Source of the DNA: Saprospiraceae bacterium
GTDB taxonomy: Bacteria; Bacteroidota; Bacteroidia; Chitinophagales; Saprospiraceae
Reading direction: 5' to 3'
NCBI GenBank assembly: GCA_013214355.1
Contig: JABSSL010000062.1
Location: 1-45,748, forward strand
Length of the DNA: 45,748 nt
Shown: positions 22,706-35,030 of the stretch, in pieces
How the letters are laid out: each line of letters opens with the position of its first letter
Position numbering within the stretch: the first letter of the stretch is position 1
Notes under the pieces: generated by a model
Databases searched by the model: none
The model's input: only the letters and a program-made list of their open reading frames with translations
Told to the model about the DNA's origin: nothing
Made by a program: the position numbers and the translations under genes

Positions 22706-24400
22706 TCATTCCCTAGGTGAAGCTGTTGTTTTTTTACCTCTTTTGTAGAAAACAAAGCCATTTTTTCTACCGATCTCCTCTAGGTCGGGTAAGGCTACTA
22801 ATTCCTTGGTCTTATTGATCTTCGTGACGATGTATACATCTTTATCCACTGGCCCTGTGAGGAACCAATCTCGCTTTGCTTCTCTGGTCTCAAAGTCAGG
22901 GTCATTGTCCTTCGCTTTGTTGAAATAAAATAGATCAACATACGATTTGTAGCCATGGGTCATGACATAGGCATCTTCATCCGATACTTCCACAAAAAAG
23001 TCAACAGCGGCTCTTTGCGAATAGCCTTCAATTCTTTTGATAAAGAAAATCAGCGTTAGGAACACAAATACGGCCGTCCCGCCAAATAGAAATTGATACC
23101 CCTTTTCGGCTTGTAGTTTTTCCCAGCGTAAAAATAGGATCAGTATAGTGAGCAATAGAACACCTGGCAATATTTCCGTACCATTCCAATTCACTGCTGC
23201 TTCTAGATTGGCTTTAGCGAAGGGGTCTTTGCTAAAGAGTGGTTCAATGAGTTCAATATTCATGGCCAGGAACGGCATGGCCACCGTGGCAAAAATAAAG
23301 AGACCACCGATGCCTATCAATCCTCCTTTCATCCATCGGTTCAAGGATAATCTACCTTCAATTAGGTGATAAATTACCACACTAGCCAAGAAGCTTAGTG
23401 GGAAATAACACATGGAGGAATAGTGTACGATCTTGGATTTGACTATGGTGAAAAGAATAAGTACCACCCAAAAGAGATACTTCATCCAGCGCCGAAAGTC
23501 TTTTTGATAATCATATTCATCAGCCGGTAAACTGAAGAAGGATCGGATCGCAAAAATCGAAGCCGGGAAGCAACCCACTAGCAAAACCACAAAATGATAG
23601 CCAGGGAAACCTTTATGACCCGCATCCGGGGTGCTGAAAAGGCGATACTGGTAGCGGTTAAATTCTTCAATAAACCAGGTGCCGTTTTTGGCAGTTTCTA
23701 TCCCATACCAGGTAAAGGTAACGAGAGTAGCAGCCACCGTAAAGAACAAAAACTCAGGCACATTCACGTAAAATCGGAATCGTTGATAGACCCAGTAGAC
23801 AAAGAAGGTCAGAGCAGCAATCATGTAAGCTACCTGTCCTTTGGTAAGGATGCCCATACCGATGAAAAAACCACTCCAAAACAAGTAAACCCACTGATTT
23901 TTGCTGAGCTCTATGCCCTTGAAACCATCTTTTTTCCAGTAAAATAGAATGAAGTAGTAAAGGCCTAAAAAGATGAAGAGGTTCAAGATTGGATCAATAA
24001 TCCCAGATTTGAAATATAAAAATGGGAGGACAGTTCCCATGTAAACCCCCGCCCAAATCACACCAAAACGGTGGTGGTAAAGTTTACGCCCGAAGTTGTA
24101 TAAAAGCACAAGGGTGACGATTCCGCAGATCGCGTTGGGAAGGCGAGCTGAAAACTCATTGATGCCAAAGAGTTTCATGGCGGTAACTTGAGACCAAAAG
24201 AAGAAGGGAGGTTTTTCCCAAAATGGATGAAAGTCGACATAAACTCGGGTGTACTCACCCGTTAGTAACATTTCACGACTAATCTCTGCGAAGTTCACTT
24301 CGTCCCAATCGAATAGATGCACTCCACCCAGGAAGGAGACAAAAAAAACTGCCCCTAAACCCGCAAATAGGAGTGAATATCTCACCGCTTGCTTATCCAT
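22706..24400 (-). CDS. Family 39 (ArnT/PMT-like) membrane glycosyltransferase
   Basis: A 564-residue polytopic membrane protein of the dolichyl/undecaprenyl-phosphate-sugar transferase class. The first loop carries the FDWDEVNFAE motif (D31, D33, E34), where family members place the catalytic acids, followed by HPFWEKPPFFFW. About eleven or twelve hydrophobic segments follow, then a soluble tail. It likely transfers a sugar from a lipid carrier to lipid A, a polysaccharide or a protein on the periplasmic side. The acceptor is unknown. It starts one base after the stop of the 2-oxoglutarate oxygenase gene, so the two are surely cotranscribed and possibly coupled. Confidence 0.88.
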   Translation of the reverse strand: MDKQAVRYSLLFAGLGAVFFVSFLGGVHLFDWDEVNFAEISREMLLTGEYTRVYVDFHPFWEKPPFFFWSQVTAMKLFGINEFSARLPNAICGIVTLVLLYNFGRKLYHHRFGVIWAGVYMGTVLPFLYFKSGIIDPILNLFIFLGLYYFILFYWKKDGFKGIELSKNQWVYLFWSGFFIGMGILTKGQVAYMIAALTFFVYWVYQRFRFYVNVPEFLFFTVAATLVTFTWYGIETAKNGTWFIEEFNRYQYRLFSTPDAGHKGFPGYHFVVLLVGCFPASIFAIRSFFSLPADEYDYQKDFRRWMKYLFWVVLILFTIVKSKIVHYSSMCYFPLSFLASVVIYHLIEGRLSLNRWMKGGLIGIGGLFIFATVAMPFLAMNIELIEPLFSKDPFAKANLEAAVNWNGTEILPGVLLLTILILFLRWEKLQAEKGYQFLFGGTAVFVFLTLIFFIKRIEGYSQRAAVDFFVEVSDEDAYVMTHGYKSYVDLFYFNKAKDNDPDFETREAKRDWFLTGPVDKDVYIVTKINKTKELVALPDLEEIGRKNGFVFYKRGKKTTASPRE

Positions 24401-24401
24401 A

Positions 24402-25256
24402 CTATTTCTTTCTTCGACTGAAGAAGTTCAATACTTTACTTACAAAATCATCATTAATGCCGAGCCAACCCTTTAGGACATTGTAAACAGCAATTAACTG
24501 CTTGTCTAGATAGATAAATAGACTCTTGATACCGTCTCCAGGTCGGGCTCTATAATTGGTGGCACGCTTCTTCGGCATGCTCTCCTCTTCGGTGAAGTAG
24601 TAGAGCGCAATGGACTTTCTCGTCATATCCTCCGGACACTGGATGACTTCCGGTAATCCGTGGAAGGAATCCTCGTCCGTATTGAACACAACACATCGAT
24701 TGAAAATTGGGCTGATCTTTTGCTCGCACTGCTTCATGTCTCTCGACCACAATTCCAGATCACCTTTGTAACTTTCTAACCAATCCTCATTGAGATACAC
24801 CAATACGTTTACTCGCCTGCGCCAATTCCTCTTGTGGGGATGCACGGTGAAATCTGCATGGATATTCAAGTAACCTCCGCGCTGACTTTGATGAAGTCCG
24901 CCTCCCTCCAAACTTGGATCCGCCTTCAAACCAGGAATACCGGTCAATTTGCTAAGAGAACGAACAAACTCGTCGCTATTTAGCTCCTTAATGACTTCCT
25001 GCAAAAAGGATGGAATGAGGTCCATCTTGTTAAGTCCATGCTTTTTCTCATTGACATGTACATAGTGTATCCAACCTGCATCTTTGACCTTCGGAAAAGC
25101 ATTCATGGCCTTGTGGGCTGCCCATTCCTCCAGGAAGTTTTCAAATTTTCCATGCGGATAAGGGCTGGCATTTTGATATTCTGCTTGATGCTCTTCGAAG
25201 ATGGAATCCCATTTTTGTACATCCAAGATTCCTTGTGTTGTCTGTTGATCAACCAT
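24402..25256 (-). CDS. 2-oxoglutarate/Fe(II)-dependent oxygenase (prolyl-hydroxylase-like)
   Basis: A 284-residue soluble protein with the jelly-roll iron site H133-x-D135 (LNIHADFTVHP) and H199 (SFHGLPE), plus R213 (MTRKSIALYYF) to bind 2-oxoglutarate. The spacing fits the P4HA/2OG-FeII_Oxy_3 group, including bacterial members linked to surface polysaccharide loci. The C-terminal 60 residues form an extra basic helical tail. It probably hydroxylates a protein side chain or a glycan or lipid precursor. The 1-base spacing to the GT39 gene suggests a joint modification pathway. The substrate is not predictable from sequence. Confidence 0.87.
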   Translation of the reverse strand: MVDQQTTQGILDVQKWDSIFEEHQAEYQNASPYPHGKFENFLEEWAAHKAMNAFPKVKDAGWIHYVHVNEKKHGLNKMDLIPSFLQEVIKELNSDEFVRSLSKLTGIPGLKADPSLEGGGLHQSQRGGYLNIHADFTVHPHKRNWRRRVNVLVYLNEDWLESYKGDLELWSRDMKQCEQKISPIFNRCVVFNTDEDSFHGLPEVIQCPEDMTRKSIALYYFTEEESMPKKRATNYRARPGDGIKSLFIYLDKQLIAVYNVLKGWLGINDDFVSKVLNFFSRRKK

Positions 25257-26198: not shown

Positions 26199-28202
26199 TT
26201 AGAACAAGTCCTTGAATTTTTGTCGACCTTGGGCATAGTATTGCCAGACTATGCTTCGGGGATATACTGCAGTTAGACGTCTGGCAGGCTTTATCCGAAT
26301 ACTATCGATCATGGCCTGGTAGCGCTTTCTCTTCTTCCAGGTGTAGGGCAGTTTTGGGAAAAAGGACCAATGCGCCTTCAAAATCGAACTGATCAAAGCG
26401 AATTTCCCCTGGGCTAAAAACAGGAGGCCGGCTAGGCCATCAAGAACCAAACGTAGTGGAATTAGCCAAAGTATCTTTGAAATCGGATCATTTTTAACGA
26501 TGTTGTAAAGGGTGTTCCTAAAGTTGAGATACACTTTTTTCGGCGTGTCGTAATTCAAGGTTCCTCCTCCGACGTGGTAAACCACGGATTCTGGCACAAC
26601 CTTTATGCTGTAGCCCGCCCGCTTGATACGCCAGCAAAGATCGATTTCTTCAGCATGAGCAAAGTAGTCTGGATCAAATCCCCCGACCTGATGAAAAATG
26701 GGGGCTTTGATAAACAAGGCCGCACCGCTGGCCCAAAAAATCTCTGCCTTATCATCGTATTGTCCTTCATCCTCTTCCATACTACCGAAAATCCTTCCTC
26801 GACAGAAAGGATATCCCAATTTATCAATCCATCCCCCAGAACCTCCTGCGTACTCAAAGCGTGTTCGCTCGTGAAAGGACAAGATTTTTGGCTGGCAAAC
26901 TGCTACCTCGGGCTGTTCAGCAAAGACCTTCATGATAGGGGCAATCCAGCCTGGTTTTACCTCCACATCAGAATTTAGGAGAATGTAATAATCAGCGTCA
27001 ATTTGCTCCAAGGCTTCGTTGTACCCTTGGGCGAATCCCCCATTTTTAGGCAAAAACAAGGTCTTTACATCGGGAAACCCAGAGAGCACTTCTTTGGAAT
27101 TATCCGTGCTGGCATTATCCGCTACGTAGATGCTCAAGTTCTCATATTCACTTTCCAGGACGAAAGGCAAAAACTGCTTTAGGTACGTCTGGCCATTGTA
27201 ATTCAGAATCACAATAGCGACTTCTGGAATCACCGCATTAGCTTTCAATTGTAGATCTGAAGCTTCAGTATTAGCTGACAATGCCTGCTGACTGGCCAAT
27301 TTGTCTTCAGCTAGTTTGGATTGTAGCCCTTCTAGATTGTCGAAACGCATATCATGTCTAATGAAATCGACAAATTCTAAGGTGATTTCCTTCCCATAGA
27401 TATCTTCTGAAAACTCAAATATATTGACTTCAATGGTTTGATTGGTATGTTGCTCTAGCGTAGGACGATCACCAATGTACAGCATTCCACCAAACTCCTT
27501 TTCTTCCAGTCTCACCTTGACTGCATATATCCCGTAAGGCGGGATGAGTTTATGTTTATCTGATACGTCGATATTGGCAGTAGGAAAACCGATAGTCCTT
27601 CCGATCTTCTGTCCTTGAATGACTTTGCCACTAAGCAAGAAAGGATGTCCCAAGAGCTGCTTTGCAGACTTTACGTCACCCTCTTCTAGGGCTTGTCGCA
27701 CTTTGGTGGAGCTAACTGCAATGTCTTGGATTTCTTGTTTTTCTATTTCCACCACTTCATATCCAAGCTCTTCACCATGCCACTTTAAGTAATCAATATT
27801 GCCTTGACGATTCAAACCAAATCTATGGTCGTATCCGATTACAATGTACCGCGGTTTAAATCGACCAACGAGGAATTGCTGGATATATTCATCCGCAGTT
27901 TGCTGGGAAAAAGCAACTGTGAATGGGACAACCACAAGATTATCGACCCCGCACTGCCGAAATAGTTCGACCTTTTCCTCGATGGTGGTGATTAGTTTTA
28001 AACTCTTATCTCTGGGATATACGACCAGGCGTGGATGCGGGTGAAAGGTAATGATCACACTTTCACCTCCAACCTTCTGAGCGAGTTGTCTGACTTTCTG
28101 AATGATTTTCTGATGCCCGCTATGCACTCCATCAAAGGAACCGATTGTAATCACGGCTTCTTTGAATTCCGGCAAATCCTCTAAATTATAGAATACATTC
28201 AT
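26199..28202 (-). CDS. ribF: RibF (FAD synthetase/riboflavin kinase) fused to a family 2 glycosyltransferase
   Basis: The start is set at the ATG at 28202; three codons earlier lies a TTG. Residues 1 to about 304 are a complete RibF. The FAD synthetase part has GSFDGVHSGH (21-30), GYDHRFG (123-129) and SSTKVR (164-169). The riboflavin kinase part has GRTIGFPTAN (201-210), PPYGIYAV and the family's usual C-terminal RHDMRFDNLEGLQ. A linker of about 22 residues (305-326) with no methionine leads without a stop into a complete GT2 enzyme (about 327-667) resembling WbbL-type rhamnosyltransferases: AIVILNYNG, ADNASTDNS, KNGGFAQGYN, LLNSDVEV (DxD-like), GGFDPDYFAHAEEIDLCWR and YHVGGGT. One chain therefore joins flavin-cofactor synthesis to surface-glycan synthesis, which is unusual. 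Confidence 0.9.
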   Translation of the reverse strand: MNVFYNLEDLPEFKEAVITIGSFDGVHSGHQKIIQKVRQLAQKVGGESVIITFHPHPRLVVYPRDKSLKLITTIEEKVELFRQCGVDNLVVVPFTVAFSQQTADEYIQQFLVGRFKPRYIVIGYDHRFGLNRQGNIDYLKWHGEELGYEVVEIEKQEIQDIAVSSTKVRQALEEGDVKSAKQLLGHPFLLSGKVIQGQKIGRTIGFPTANIDVSDKHKLIPPYGIYAVKVRLEEKEFGGMLYIGDRPTLEQHTNQTIEVNIFEFSEDIYGKEITLEFVDFIRHDMRFDNLEGLQSKLAEDKLASQQALSANTEASDLQLKANAVIPEVAIVILNYNGQTYLKQFLPFVLESEYENLSIYVADNASTDNSKEVLSGFPDVKTLFLPKNGGFAQGYNEALEQIDADYYILLNSDVEVKPGWIAPIMKVFAEQPEVAVCQPKILSFHERTRFEYAGGSGGWIDKLGYPFCRGRIFGSMEEDEGQYDDKAEIFWASGAALFIKAPIFHQVGGFDPDYFAHAEEIDLCWRIKRAGYSIKVVPESVVYHVGGGTLNYDTPKKVYLNFRNTLYNIVKNDPISKILWLIPLRLVLDGLAGLLFLAQGKFALISSILKAHWSFFPKLPYTWKKRKRYQAMIDSIRIKPARRLTAVYPRSIVWQYYAQGRQKFKDLF

Positions 28203-28216: not shown

Positions 28217-28423
28217 TACTTTTCCCGATTTTTACTAGATTATTTGTATTCCTTTTTGGTAAAACTTTACATCAATTCCCAACAGCTCTCTAAACAGCAG
28301 AGTCGGAAAATAGGTTATAAAGGAAGGGAGTTTTGCTATGACCTATTTTAAGGTCTAGTTTTGCTTGCCATTTTTACAATGTGTTATAGATGAACCTGCG
28401 TTCATAATTTCGTTTTTTGTTAG

Positions 28424-28431
28424 TAGCTTTG
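28424..28431 (+). promoter_or_regulatory. Candidate -7 box for the Mrp gene
   Basis: TAGCTTTG matches TAnnTTTG and lies 18 bases before the ATG at 28450, implying a leader of about a dozen bases. The -33 region has only a TTC-like partial match. Confidence 0.35.
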
Positions 28432-28449
28432 CGTCTAATTTTGAAAAGC

Positions 28450-29547
28450 ATGGAAATAGATAAGAGTGTAGTAGCAGAGGCCTTGGCCAAAGTAAAAGAT
28501 CCGAGTTCTGGTCAGAGCATCATCATGAGAAACATGGTGGTGGATTTGAAGGTGGAAGGGGATAATATCAGCTTTACAATCGAATTAGCCAGTCTTAATG
28601 CGGACCACAAGTCTGAGCTCAATTTTGCTTGTCAAGCGGCCCTCCAGGAGGTCTATCCACAGGCTAATGTACATGTGCACATGGTATCCAATAATCCTTC
28701 GGCACAAGCCCCAGCTAGAGTTTTACCACAGGTGAAAAACATTATTGCTGTAGCATCAGGTAAAGGAGGAGTAGGGAAATCTACGGTAAGTACCAATCTA
28801 GCGCTGGGCCTAAAAGCCTTGGGAGCAAAGGTTGGTTTAATGGATGCTGACTTATATGGACCCTCTATCCCAACCATGTTTGGCTTAAGTGGGCAGCGAC
28901 CTAAGGTGGAAACCCTCTATGGGCAGCCAAAAATTATTCCATTGGAGGCCTACGGTATGCCTGTTATTTCCATTGGGTTCATCATTGAACCAGAACAAGC
29001 AGTGGTGCTCCGAGGGCCAAGATTGGCAGGGATTATCAAGCAGTTTATTAATGATACAATCTGGCCGGAGTTAGACTATTTGGTGGTGGATCTACCACCA
29101 GGTACTGGGGATATTCAACTAAGCTTGGTTCAGTCTGTTCCCGTGACTGGGGCGGTTATGGTTACCACTCCACAAGAGGTTGCTGTAGCCGATGCCGTAA
29201 AGGCCATGAATATGTTTATGCTGCCGTCCGTGAATGTGCCGATACTTGGGGTGGTGGAAAATATGTCTTGGTTTACTCCTGAGGAACTTCCTGACAATAA
29301 ATACTATTTATTTGGTGAAGGCGGAGGAAAGAAACTGGCGAAAATGGCCAATACAGTATTGTTGGGGCAGCTTCCATTGGTACAGGCGGTAAGAGAGGCA
29401 GGGGATGCCGGCAAGCCAATAGTATTGGAGGATCATCCAATTACAAAGCAAGCTATTATGCAAATTGCTGAAAATACGGCACGTCAAGTAGCTATGAGAA
29501 ATGAGATGAAAGCGCCCACGCAGATAGTGCAGATTAAAACTCAATAG
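28450..29547 (+). CDS. Mrp/ApbC/NBP35-type Fe-S cluster carrier P-loop ATPase
   Basis: The start is set at the ATG at 28450 (MEIDKSVVAEAL); the frame extends 11 codons upstream to a TTG. The 365-residue product has an N-terminal DUF59/MIP18-like domain (about 1-85) and a ParA/MinD-like ATPase with deviant Walker A GKGGVGKST (104-112), a MDADLYGPS loop, VVDLPPGTGD and ENMSWF. As in many Bacteroidota homologues the ENMSWFTPEELPDNKYYLFG segment lacks the CxxC found in E. coli Mrp. It probably assembles or delivers Fe-S clusters together with the Nfu-type protein encoded about 100 bases downstream. Confidence 0.94.
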   Translation: MEIDKSVVAEALAKVKDPSSGQSIIMRNMVVDLKVEGDNISFTIELASLNADHKSELNFACQAALQEVYPQANVHVHMVSNNPSAQAPARVLPQVKNIIAVASGKGGVGKSTVSTNLALGLKALGAKVGLMDADLYGPSIPTMFGLSGQRPKVETLYGQPKIIPLEAYGMPVISIGFIIEPEQAVVLRGPRLAGIIKQFINDTIWPELDYLVVDLPPGTGDIQLSLVQSVPVTGAVMVTTPQEVAVADAVKAMNMFMLPSVNVPILGVVENMSWFTPEELPDNKYYLFGEGGGKKLAKMANTVLLGQLPLVQAVREAGDAGKPIVLEDHPITKQAIMQIAENTARQVAMRNEMKAPTQIVQIKTQ

Positions 29548-32367: not shown

Positions 32368-33780
32368 TCAATCAAATGCACGATTCAAAGCTAGCACCTT
32401 AAGCTGAGGGTGTTGACTCATAAATCGCTGAATAATCTTGGTGGTTTCTGGATTCCCAGGAAATGACTTGACTACCTCGCGTAAGGACTCTGTTCCTTGT
32501 TGTGCCTCTTCTTGAGTGGCATATCCGTAGCCAGCATATCGTCCATATTCTACAAGTACTATTGAGATTTCTTCTGCCGTTCTTCCAGTGTCAATCAGGA
32601 GAAAGTCCTCTTCAAATACGGTGGAAAGTCTTTCTTTCACCTCCTCCGCCCGTTCATTATAAGAGGCTACGCTTTCTTGTTCAATACAGGCCCCGTGGCA
32701 TTGTTTGATATGATAGTTAAAACAGGCGCTTTGACTGGCTTGTAAGTGACAATAGCGAGCGCAGAGTTCATATTCTGAAAGCATGCGACTGATGTGCCCC
32801 TTGGCCCGGCTAAGTTTGGGGTATTCGGCAATGATATTGTACTTCTTGCGATCTTTGGCTAGTACTTTAGCGGCATCAAAGCACAAATAACCAGCCTCAT
32901 TGTAATAGTAATGGATGACAAAGGGAAAGTTGCGCATTCGTTGGGCTCGGTTGATGGCTGGAGAGAGGCGTTTTATCTCATAAGACTCTAGCAGCAGAGC
33001 AACCAATTCGCTACCCGTCAATTCAAAAGTAATATCCCAAACTCTCTTTTGTAACTTCGTCCCCTTCTCCGTCATATCAGCAAAGTGCTCCGCAATTCGT
33101 TTCTTGATGTTAATACTCTTACCCACATAGACGACATTTCCATCTTGATCGTGGAAATAATATACACCGCAAGCTTCCGGAAGGCCATGGATTTGTTCTA
33201 AGGTAATGTCATTAGGAAGTTTAGAGGCTTTGATACCGAGATTGATGATTTTGTCGGCAGTTTCCTGATTCTCCTTATTTTCTAAAATCATTTCGAAAAG
33301 CTCGGTAGTAGCCTTGGCATCAGCCATGGCCCTATGCCGGGCATCTACTTGGATTTGGAAGTGGCGAATCAAGTTTTCTAAACTGTAGGATCGAAGACCG
33401 GGGAAGGCTTGTTTACTCAGCCGGACCGTGCACAATTGCCGACGACTAAAGGTATAACCCAAACGTTGAAATTCTTCCCGGATAAAAGTGTAATCAAACC
33501 TCACATTATGTGCCACGAAAACAGCCCCTTCGGTCAATTCTACAATCTCCTTAGCCACTTCATAAAACTTCGGTGCGTCAGCCACCATATCTTGACTTAT
33601 ACCAGTCAGTTGTGTAATGCCATAGGGGATATAGCATTCTGGATTAATTAAAGTCTCAAAAGTTTGAATTATCTTTTCACCGTCATGTCGAATAATGGCA
33701 ATTTCAGTGATCTTGTCCCGGCTGGCTCGACCTCCTGTAGTTTCGATATCAATGATGGTATATTCCTTCTTTTTTGTCAC
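32368..33780 (-). CDS. DnaQ-like 3'-5' exonuclease fused to a UvrC-type GIY-YIG nuclease
   Basis: The start is set at GTG 33780, giving 470 residues that begin just before the exonuclease motif. A longer frame reaches 33948 but would run through the divergent gene and adds nothing recognisable. Residues about 6-170 form a DEDDh exonuclease: IIDIETTGG with D11 and E13, VAHNVRFDYTFI, and RHRAMADAKAT. Residues about 195-275 form a GIY-YIG domain: CGVYYFHDQDGNVVYVGKSINIKKRIAEHF. A UvrC-like region with a cysteine cluster (CARYCHL, ACFNYHIKQCHGAC) follows. The UvrC RNase-H half is absent. This DNA polymerase III epsilon-like/GIY-YIG (Cho-related) arrangement is known in bacteria and is presumed to act in DNA repair. 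Confidence 0.9.
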   Translation of the reverse strand: MTKKKEYTIIDIETTGGRASRDKITEIAIIRHDGEKIIQTFETLINPECYIPYGITQLTGISQDMVADAPKFYEVAKEIVELTEGAVFVAHNVRFDYTFIREEFQRLGYTFSRRQLCTVRLSKQAFPGLRSYSLENLIRHFQIQVDARHRAMADAKATTELFEMILENKENQETADKIINLGIKASKLPNDITLEQIHGLPEACGVYYFHDQDGNVVYVGKSINIKKRIAEHFADMTEKGTKLQKRVWDITFELTGSELVALLLESYEIKRLSPAINRAQRMRNFPFVIHYYYNEAGYLCFDAAKVLAKDRKKYNIIAEYPKLSRAKGHISRMLSEYELCARYCHLQASQSACFNYHIKQCHGACIEQESVASYNERAEEVKERLSTVFEEDFLLIDTGRTAEEISIVLVEYGRYAGYGYATQEEAQQGTESLREVVKSFPGNPETTKIIQRFMSQHPQLKVLALNRAFD

Positions 33781-33800
33781 CGGATTAAAACAATTTGGTC

Positions 33801-35030
33801 GTGAAGATAAAATTTTTTGTTGTATTTTTAAGCTTCTTGAATTTCTATTGTTCCGCCAATAGGCAGCAACCCACACTAGGCCAACTTCCAATTGATAAAG
33901 CTCAACGCTTAGCGGTAGGGGCCGAGCGTCTGGATATGTACTGGCCACTGATTAAGGACAAAAAGGTAGCCTTTGTGGTAAATCAAACCTCGAGAATGGG
34001 GGAGGCGCACTTGATTGATTCTTTACATGCGCTGGATTTAGATATTGCCAGGATTTTCGCTCCTGAACATGGCTTCAGAGGGACGGCTGATGCGGGGGAA
34101 AAAATAAAAGATGGTAAAGATGCCGCTACTGGGATTCCTATTACATCCTTATACGGTAAAAAACGGAAGCCTTCTCCAGAGGATTTGTCGGGGGTAGATT
34201 GGGTCATTTTTGATATTCAGGATGTTGGCGCTCGCTTTTATACCTATATCTCCAGTATGCACTATGTCATGCAAGCCTGCGCAGAACAAGGAATTGCCTT
34301 CATGGTTTTAGATCGCCCCAACCCTAATGGGCACTATGTAGACGGGCCAGTATTGGATCCGGAATACCAATCCTTTGTTGGGATGCATGAGGTGCCTGTG
34401 GTACATGGGTTAACAGTGGGTGAATATGCTTCGATGGTAAATGAGGAAGGTTGGTTAGGGAAAGGGTTGAAGTGTGACCTCAAAGTGATTCCATGTGCTG
34501 GCTATAGCCATCAAACGCCTTATACTTTGCCCATCAAACCTTCACCAAATCTGCCAAATAATCGAGCCATCTATCTGTATCCATCTCTGTGCTTTTTTGA
34601 GGGTACGCAGGTAAGCGTGGGGCGCGGAACCGATAAGCAATTTCAACTAATTGGTTTACCCAATTATCCTTCTGAAGAGTTTTCGTTTACTCCAAGCCCG
34701 CAACCCGGCGCTCGCTACCCTAAACACCAAGATAAACTCCTTCATGGATTCGATCTTACCAGGAAAGCAGCGGAAGATATTCGTAAAGAGGCCCGTCTGA
34801 ACCTGTCCTATTTATTAGAAGTGTATCAAAATGCCCCTGATAAAGAGCAGTTCTTTCTGAAGACAAACTTCTTCGATAAGTTAGCAGGAGGTAAATCATT
34901 GCAGGAGCAACTGAAGGCTGGCTGGTCTGAACAGCAAATTCGAAAGAGTTGGGAGCCCCAGCTCAGTCAATTCAAACAAAAGAGAAAAAAATACCTCTTA
35001 TACACGGATGAATTTTCGGTTAAAAACTAA
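33801..35030 (+). CDS. NamZ-like exo-beta-N-acetylmuramidase (DUF1343)
   Basis: The family, formerly DUF1343, removes N-acetylmuramic acid from non-reducing ends of peptidoglycan fragments, as described for Bacillus and Tannerella NamZ. The 409-residue form starts at GTG 33801 (MKIKFFVVFL); a TTG two codons earlier is the alternative. The N-terminus is a signal peptide with a possible but atypical lipoprotein cysteine at C17. Family motifs are VAFVVNQTS, FAPEHGFRG (PEHGF 88-92), VIFDIQDVGARFYTYISSM, LDRPNPNG and EGTQVSVGRGTDKQFQ. It most likely acts in the periplasm on cell-wall turnover products. It is divergent from the exonuclease gene with only 20 bases between the chosen starts. Confidence 0.9.
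   Translation: MKIKFFVVFLSFLNFYCSANRQQPTLGQLPIDKAQRLAVGAERLDMYWPLIKDKKVAFVVNQTSRMGEAHLIDSLHALDLDIARIFAPEHGFRGTADAGEKIKDGKDAATGIPITSLYGKKRKPSPEDLSGVDWVIFDIQDVGARFYTYISSMHYVMQACAEQGIAFMVLDRPNPNGHYVDGPVLDPEYQSFVGMHEVPVVHGLTVGEYASMVNEEGWLGKGLKCDLKVIPCAGYSHQTPYTLPIKPSPNLPNNRAIYLYPSLCFFEGTQVSVGRGTDKQFQLIGLPNYPSEEFSFTPSPQPGARYPKHQDKLLHGFDLTRKAAEDIRKEARLNLSYLLEVYQNAPDKEQFFLKTNFFDKLAGGKSLQEQLKAGWSEQQIRKSWEPQLSQFKQKRKKYLLYTDEFSVKN

Follow-up and report, generated by a model that had tools for sequence, protein, structure and literature searches.

Riboflavin kinase and flavin mononucleotide (FMN) adenylyltransferase are joined in bifunctional RibF proteins such as the flavin adenine dinucleotide (FAD) synthetase of Corynebacterium ammoniagenes (FADS, PDB 2x0k), and this is the only RibF combination named in the part of a survey of vitamin-gene metabolic fusions considered here (PMC4921024). 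A second point of comparison is dnaX of Thermus thermophilus, in which, according to the portions of the reports used, a run of nine A residues gives rise to about half short product and stop codons in the other frames lie nearby; two-open-reading-frame versions of dnaX with ten A's also exist (PMC1088944, PMC3711429, PMC5009743). We analyzed a 45,748-nt stretch of DNA (the window: the whole stretch, positions 1 to 45,748 of contig JABSSL010000062.1, assembly GCA_013214355.1) from a Saprospiraceae bacterium, in which ribF continues in frame into a gene for a family 2 glycosyltransferase (GT2) on the minus strand (26199..28202). Like the fusions of the survey, as far as that part presents them, RibF–GT2 joins a B-vitamin enzyme to another domain. 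The difference from C. ammoniagenes FADS is that the chain extends through a helix-like linker into GT2. The family nearly always keeps the GT2 gene close behind ribF, a covalent join being one among several arrangements that achieve this. We slightly favor the view that in many Saprospiraceae lineages this is a two-product gene, in which slippage at a run of 9 to 11 A's would set the ratio of free RibF to RibF–glycosyltransferase, while lineages toggle the zero-frame product, drop the run for a permanent fusion (as in the window), or overlap the two genes.

The ribF–GT2 gene and its range

An earlier note, made from this DNA without database searches, had proposed that one reading frame joins RibF to a GT2 enzyme, and this was borne out: the coding sequence of 667 residues extends from an ATG at 28202 to a stop at 26199-26201 with zero internal stops, and the frame recurs in relatives. 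Its N-terminal portion matches FAD_syn (FMN adenylyltransferase, PF06574; residues 13-167, 27702..28166) followed by Flavokinase (riboflavin kinase, PF01687; residues 184-306, 27285..27653) at 168.5 and 132.8 bits, relative to Pfam cut-offs of 27 and 19.6. The C-terminal half has a GT-A fold, matches Glycos_transf_2 (PF00535; residues 330-452, 26847..27215) at 76.2 bits (cut-off 23.3), and shares 13-19% identity with the glycosyltransferase entries listed. Taken singly, the domains are ordinary members of their families. Both halves also retain their active-site motifs, as had been claimed. In 59 aligned fused proteins, the RibF motifs GxFDGVHxGH, SSTKxR, and PTAN and the catalytic Glu, which we take to be the catalytic motifs of RibF, are invariant or nearly so. 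N410 and D412 (DxD-type) and E518, E519, and D521 (the ED motif, at about 26640-26651, C-terminal of the Glycos_transf_2 core) are invariant in the same alignment; presumably the former is the metal site and the latter the catalytic motif. In its GT-A core and these residues the glycosyltransferase half conforms to its family, and it differs in its placement behind RibF.

The junction (about residues 305-325, 27228..27290) lacks Met, as had been observed before, and contains no A run. In the structure model, the linker extends the C-terminal helix of RibF (290-322), with a mean predicted local distance difference test score (pLDDT) of 70-76 in blocks 311-330, and the predicted template modeling score (pTM) of 0.59 leaves the mutual placement of the RibF and GT2 domains uncertain. 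Helices near the C-terminus (574-635, 26298..26483), seen in the structure model and in a hydropathy peak at 577-608 (mean up to 1.94 over 19 residues), possibly contact the membrane. Because the fusion provides the only PF06574 match and the only PF01687 match in the 11.19-Mb genome (224 contigs), FMN and FAD apparently derive solely from the fused protein, judging from gene content. Riboflavin kinase, FMN adenylyltransferase, and a GT-A family 2 glycosyltransferase would be made in this genome as one polypeptide.

The earlier note had suggested looking for the same fusion in related genomes, and it is present there; the two halves are thus not always separate genes in relatives, the outcome that the note had named as a refutation. 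A first search covered 60 genomes (the organism's own, three of the same genus, 33 others of the family, and 23 from other families of the order). The full-length fusion turned up in each of the three congeneric genomes and across many further genera of the family, and was absent from the 23 genomes of other families. Identity to the window fusion is 91, 91, and 80% within the genus and 41-61% in the other fused proteins aligned, and the named strong matches belong to two uncultured Lewinella metagenome-assembled genomes (MAGs) and one Saprospiraceae MAG. As a criterion for fusion we used E < 1e-150, which is out of reach of single halves (best single half 4.5e-138). By best E-value per genome among the matches listed, 290 of 398 sampled family genomes reach this value; the 290 were tallied by eye, with the matched range seen for part of the genomes only and some matches truncated where a contig ends, and an in-frame stop splits at least five of them (G023, G024, G153, G215, and G329). 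Among the 108 weaker-scoring genomes are cases of missing genes, of loci at contig ends, and of long-linker fusions (at least three: G410, G413, and G417). Among 395 sampled Bacteroidota genomes (a sample, not a census), six belong to the family, and none of the 389 others has a match of E < 1e-150 by the same measure. The best E-value outside the family is about 1e-112, and where both halves matched, the matches were separate. Strong GT2 relatives occur throughout the phylum sample, unfused outside the family.

Five family genomes with a stated completeness of 90-98% (G016, G077, G186, G240, and G268) yielded no fusion match better than E 5.8e-36, and G016 is also devoid of any PF06574 match; an assembly gap or an alternative flavin supply may be responsible.

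Most comparisons within the genus show saturation of synonymous sites; identity is 79-95% for RibF, 84-92% for GT2, and 29-46% for the linker, which is exactly 24 codons long and open in all four genomes compared. Together with the recurrence in genus and family and the conserved motifs, these patterns support a fusion that is genuine, maintained, and old, the first of the two origins that the earlier note had weighed. It is easy to set aside fusions of a housekeeping enzyme with an unrelated one as oddities or noise in annotation; this one is the sole FMN/FAD maker found in its genome, was seen in a single family, and is old. No title in the literature searched refers to a RibF–GT2 fusion, and a slippery junction or the restriction to a family was also not found, in searches that included no domain-architecture database. 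To that extent, what appears new is the RibF–GT2 combination, a slippery junction, and a restriction to one family as far as the sampled genomes show.

Junction states across the family

To compare junctions, we collected the unique DNA between RibF residue 298 and GT residue 330, leaving out duplicates, one locus with non-adjacent genes (L244), and single-half loci. This gave 221 distinct junctions (L, G, and g numbers denote loci, genomes, and genera), of which 166 are fused and 55 are split with gene order and strand retained. The split pairs comprise 13 four-base stop-start overlaps (ATGA, GTGA, or TTGA), 8 other overlaps, 21 short gaps, 9 pairs whose anchors lie over 150 bp from each other, and 4 pairs without an ATG, GTG, or TTG for GT2. 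Gaps in the nine long-gap pairs range from 170 bp to about 1.4 kb, e.g. in L181 (G124) and L119/L170 (G275). L129 (G007), a start-less split pair without an A run, has a CTG overlapping the RibF stop (CTGA), which may serve as the GT2 start. In two fused genomes, G410 (L108/L177) and G413 (L114/L178), the zone between RibF residue 298 and GT residue 330 has grown to 89 and 53 codons and is still in frame. These enlarged zones carry short internal repeats, e.g. PPSTV, and a PDPSPEREG stretch that, to us, resembles a translated intergenic repeat.

A RibF+GT2 tree (220 family members, 10 outgroups; L102 omitted) requires 15 changes of state by parsimony, versus a mean of 59 with shuffled labels, and split and fused species coexist within single genera, e.g. 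g16 and g85. A clade of 24 all-split members branches first in this tree. G081 and G101 also fall inside the all-split clade. In these two genomes (L184/L185 and L086, respectively) the genes are separated by 80 kb, or sit on different contigs and the 1.5 kb upstream of GT2 contains no RibF. Several deep nodes are poorly supported in both the RibF+GT2 and the GT2-only trees. With a tenfold weight on gains the reconstruction has 1 gain and 15 losses, and with a tenfold weight on losses it has 14 gains and 1 loss, or 24 gains; cost weighting thus cannot separate one fusion followed by many splits from many fusions.

What goes beyond the earlier note is that the family has the join in some lineages and not in others, and that a slippery A run sometimes accompanies it. 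The sequences compared make the following almost certain: the genes are unfused in genomes sampled outside the family and separate in the order-level outgroups read; within the family GT2 nearly always sits directly behind ribF, by a fusion, an overlapping or close stop-start, or an A9–A11 run near the end of RibF, used interchangeably; and the window lineage has a plain, permanent fusion without a run. The tandem arrangement probably arose at the root of the family or close to it. Seeing the locus in fused, spaced, overlapping, and slippery states makes the question of how an operon becomes a fused protein directly testable, and if this history is true, the locus displays every step from operon to fused enzyme.

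Adenine runs at the junction and candidate slippage

Near the end of RibF, 28 of the 221 junctions (23 fused and 5 split, from 19 genera) contain a run of 9 to 11 A's, with no longer run among the junctions read. Counting runs of nine or more A's in the 166 fused genes gives 23 within 13,923 nt of junction and 4 within the other 317,802 nt. Resampling of synonymous codons by each gene's own usage predicts 8.4 such runs (maximum 16 in 400 trials). The longest runs in fused junctions have a bimodal length distribution, with 11 of 7, 5 of 8, 10 of 9, and 13 of 10 A's, and zero of 11 or more. We also surveyed 20 stretches (329.6 kb, 35-59% GC) picked for bearing a junction run: 20 of the 21 coding-sense runs of at least nine A's are the junction runs, with one other in 288 kb of coding sequence, and the further runs are nine intergenic and one antisense.

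The run ends 21-26 nt before the GT anchor in 17 of the 23 run-bearing fusions and about 17-25 codons past RibF residue 298, at or just beyond the terminus of a stand-alone RibF, and it occurs in all three codon phases. A stop in the slipped frame follows within two codons in 12/23 (control 21%) and within five codons in 21/23 (control 54%), and both shifted frames stop within 16 codons in 19/23 (control 58%). By eye, the run is absent from the RibF ends of 10 outgroups and of one family member with unlinked genes, which rules it out as a general feature of RibF ends.

Some pairs carry the run out of frame. In L148 (A10), L137 (A10), and L161 (A11), GT2 is reached by one slip at the run and has no ATG, GTG, or TTG of its own, while L153 and L176 combine A10 with a possible TTG start. 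L109, truncated at a contig end, carries an A10 and, one base past it, the RibF stop; for GT2 the sole candidate start is a GTG that falls within the first GT strand. A TAA or TAG occupies this same place, in the RibF frame, in L153, L176, and L109. L137, L153, L176, and L109 belong to one genus (g85), and the agreement of these four genomes argues against homopolymer miscalls; three fused members of g85 have no run. A warning would be that frameshifted-looking ribF–GT2 pairs may be functional.

We suggest that RNA polymerase slips at the A run, as in Thermus dnaX, so that RibF alone and RibF–GT2 would be produced from one gene, with either product in the zero frame. The parallel with dnaX, as described in those portions of the reports, includes A9–A10 at the point where the short product would be expected to terminate, stops close by in the non-zero frames, and the existence of in-frame and two-ORF (open reading frame) versions. 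The differences are that the gene is unrelated, that slippage is proposed here from sequence, and that most junctions read, including that of the window, are run-free. Stable RNA structure was not evident downstream of the runs: in 70-nt segments compared with mononucleotide shuffles, the mean z is -0.12 for 28 runs (two below -2), versus -0.44 for 60 controls. The lack of structure on average favors transcriptional slippage over structure-stimulated ribosomal frameshifting. By analogy with dnaX, we lean toward two products from polymerase slippage, and it is about an even chance that co-production is the trait kept by selection, with covalent linkage as one solution. The explanation as a whole, from the genes unfused outside the family to selected co-production, appears likely. 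Slippage of the dnaX type would then have a recurrent cellular example, at the A9–A11 junction, that belongs neither to replication nor to mobile elements.

Several observations weigh against this explanation. As many as 138 of the 166 fused junctions lack even A8, and the window gene itself has no run at its junction and no A9 anywhere in the window, so that slippage is not directly informative on that gene. A possible start follows the run in 7 of the 23 run-bearing fusions. The nine long-gap pairs indicate that the tie is not obligatory, and ribF and GT2 are apart in G081 and G101. In the GT2-only tree the all-split clade sits, weakly supported, inside other branches instead of splitting off first, so that the ancestral state may have been split or fused, and the outgroups hold the two genes in different neighborhoods with no hint of a shared pathway. 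The run-bearing lineages are related, with about 18 changes on the tree, and p-values overstate their independence, so that the run statistics speak for a pattern and should not be read as exact probabilities. Finally, linkers are weakly constrained and run-bearing linkers are richer in Lys (0.156 vs 0.106), so part of the excess of runs could be neutral.

Taken further, this last point yields an alternative to which we give roughly one chance in a few, in which close genes fuse and split via chance indels and the A runs are tolerated Lys spacers without a role in expression. It is in keeping with the linker as the least constrained part of the protein (29-46% identity vs 79-95% in the domains), with the approximately 15 changes of fusion state, and with the Lys-rich run linkers. 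It accounts poorly for the excess of runs when amino acids are held fixed (23 vs 8.4), for the peaks at 9 and 10 with only five junctions at 8, for 23 A runs of at least nine versus one T9 run, for the excess of slipped-frame stops, and for the three junctions that have a run and no GT2 start.

The earlier note had raised a separate GT2 from internal GTG/TTG codons, and such starts are possible in the window: the linker contains TTG, TTG, and GTG, it is poorly conserved, and relatives have separate genes. That the window organism makes two proteins, by internal initiation or by cleavage of the fusion in the linker, is nonetheless unlikely. The pattern of starts varies even within the genus (L011 retains only the first TTG), and the linker is modeled, at lower confidence, as a helix continuing RibF. 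As a general rule internal initiation of GT2 is ruled out, since 66/166 fused junctions have no in-frame ATG, GTG, or TTG.

More doubtful still is phase variation, in which replication slippage in the A run would switch the fusion between cells. A runs are expected to be hypermutable, going by the consulted part of one dnaX report (PMC1088944), and one genus includes a species with an in-frame A10 and another with an out-of-frame A10 (L023 and L076). However, run length looks stable in g85, where four genomes have an out-of-frame A10 in common; FAD synthesis would itself stay on; and no run exceeds 11. There is little to recommend the run as an A-rich leader that aids internal ribosome starts on GT2: an in-frame ATG directly follows it in 4/23 fusions (L014, L015, L045, and L054), while 16/23 have no in-frame ATG, GTG, or TTG between run and GT anchor. 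Lastly, a sequencing or assembly error hiding a stop, or a very recent stop loss, both entertained in the earlier note, can be dismissed even for a gene from a draft assembly of 224 contigs, because synonymous sites are mostly saturated, the motifs are invariant or nearly so, the frame and the 24-codon linker length are kept in the genus, and the same continuous frame recurs in the family.

Origin and surroundings of the GT2 gene

In the outgroups, ribF and the relative of GT2 occupy different clusters, whose members were identified by Pfam in some loci only. The RibF cluster of L237 contains FtsX, DUF3098, BacA, and TruB (Pfam), and at least three of these families, assigned by clustering, lie near RibF in 8 of 10 outgroup RibF loci. 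The GT2 relative sits elsewhere. In 3 of 11 loci it directly follows the same gene, and a WbqC-family gene is close by (the GT2 frame of L230 was missed by the listing). The gene ahead of it, identified by Pfam in L228 only, belongs to the lipid A acyltransferase family. From these neighbors we infer an envelope or lipopolysaccharide (LPS) role for GT2, and the fused protein probably also performs a conserved envelope-glycan transfer, perhaps to the LPS core.

In the window, a co-directional gene for an RNA pseudouridine synthase (PF00849; 25461..26192, minus strand) begins six bases past the stop of the fusion and is possibly carried on the same transcript. At the upstream edge of the unit is a divergent gene for an Mrp/NUBPL-type P-loop ATPase (28417..29547, plus strand). 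Farther downstream of the fusion, 22706-25256 (minus strand) encodes a PMT_2-type membrane glycosyltransferase and a 2-oxoglutarate-Fe(II) oxygenase, which possibly belong to an envelope-modification unit. The ORF at 32368-33948 (minus strand) encodes what, from its sequence, we take to be a DnaQ-type exonuclease fused to a GIY-YIG nuclease.
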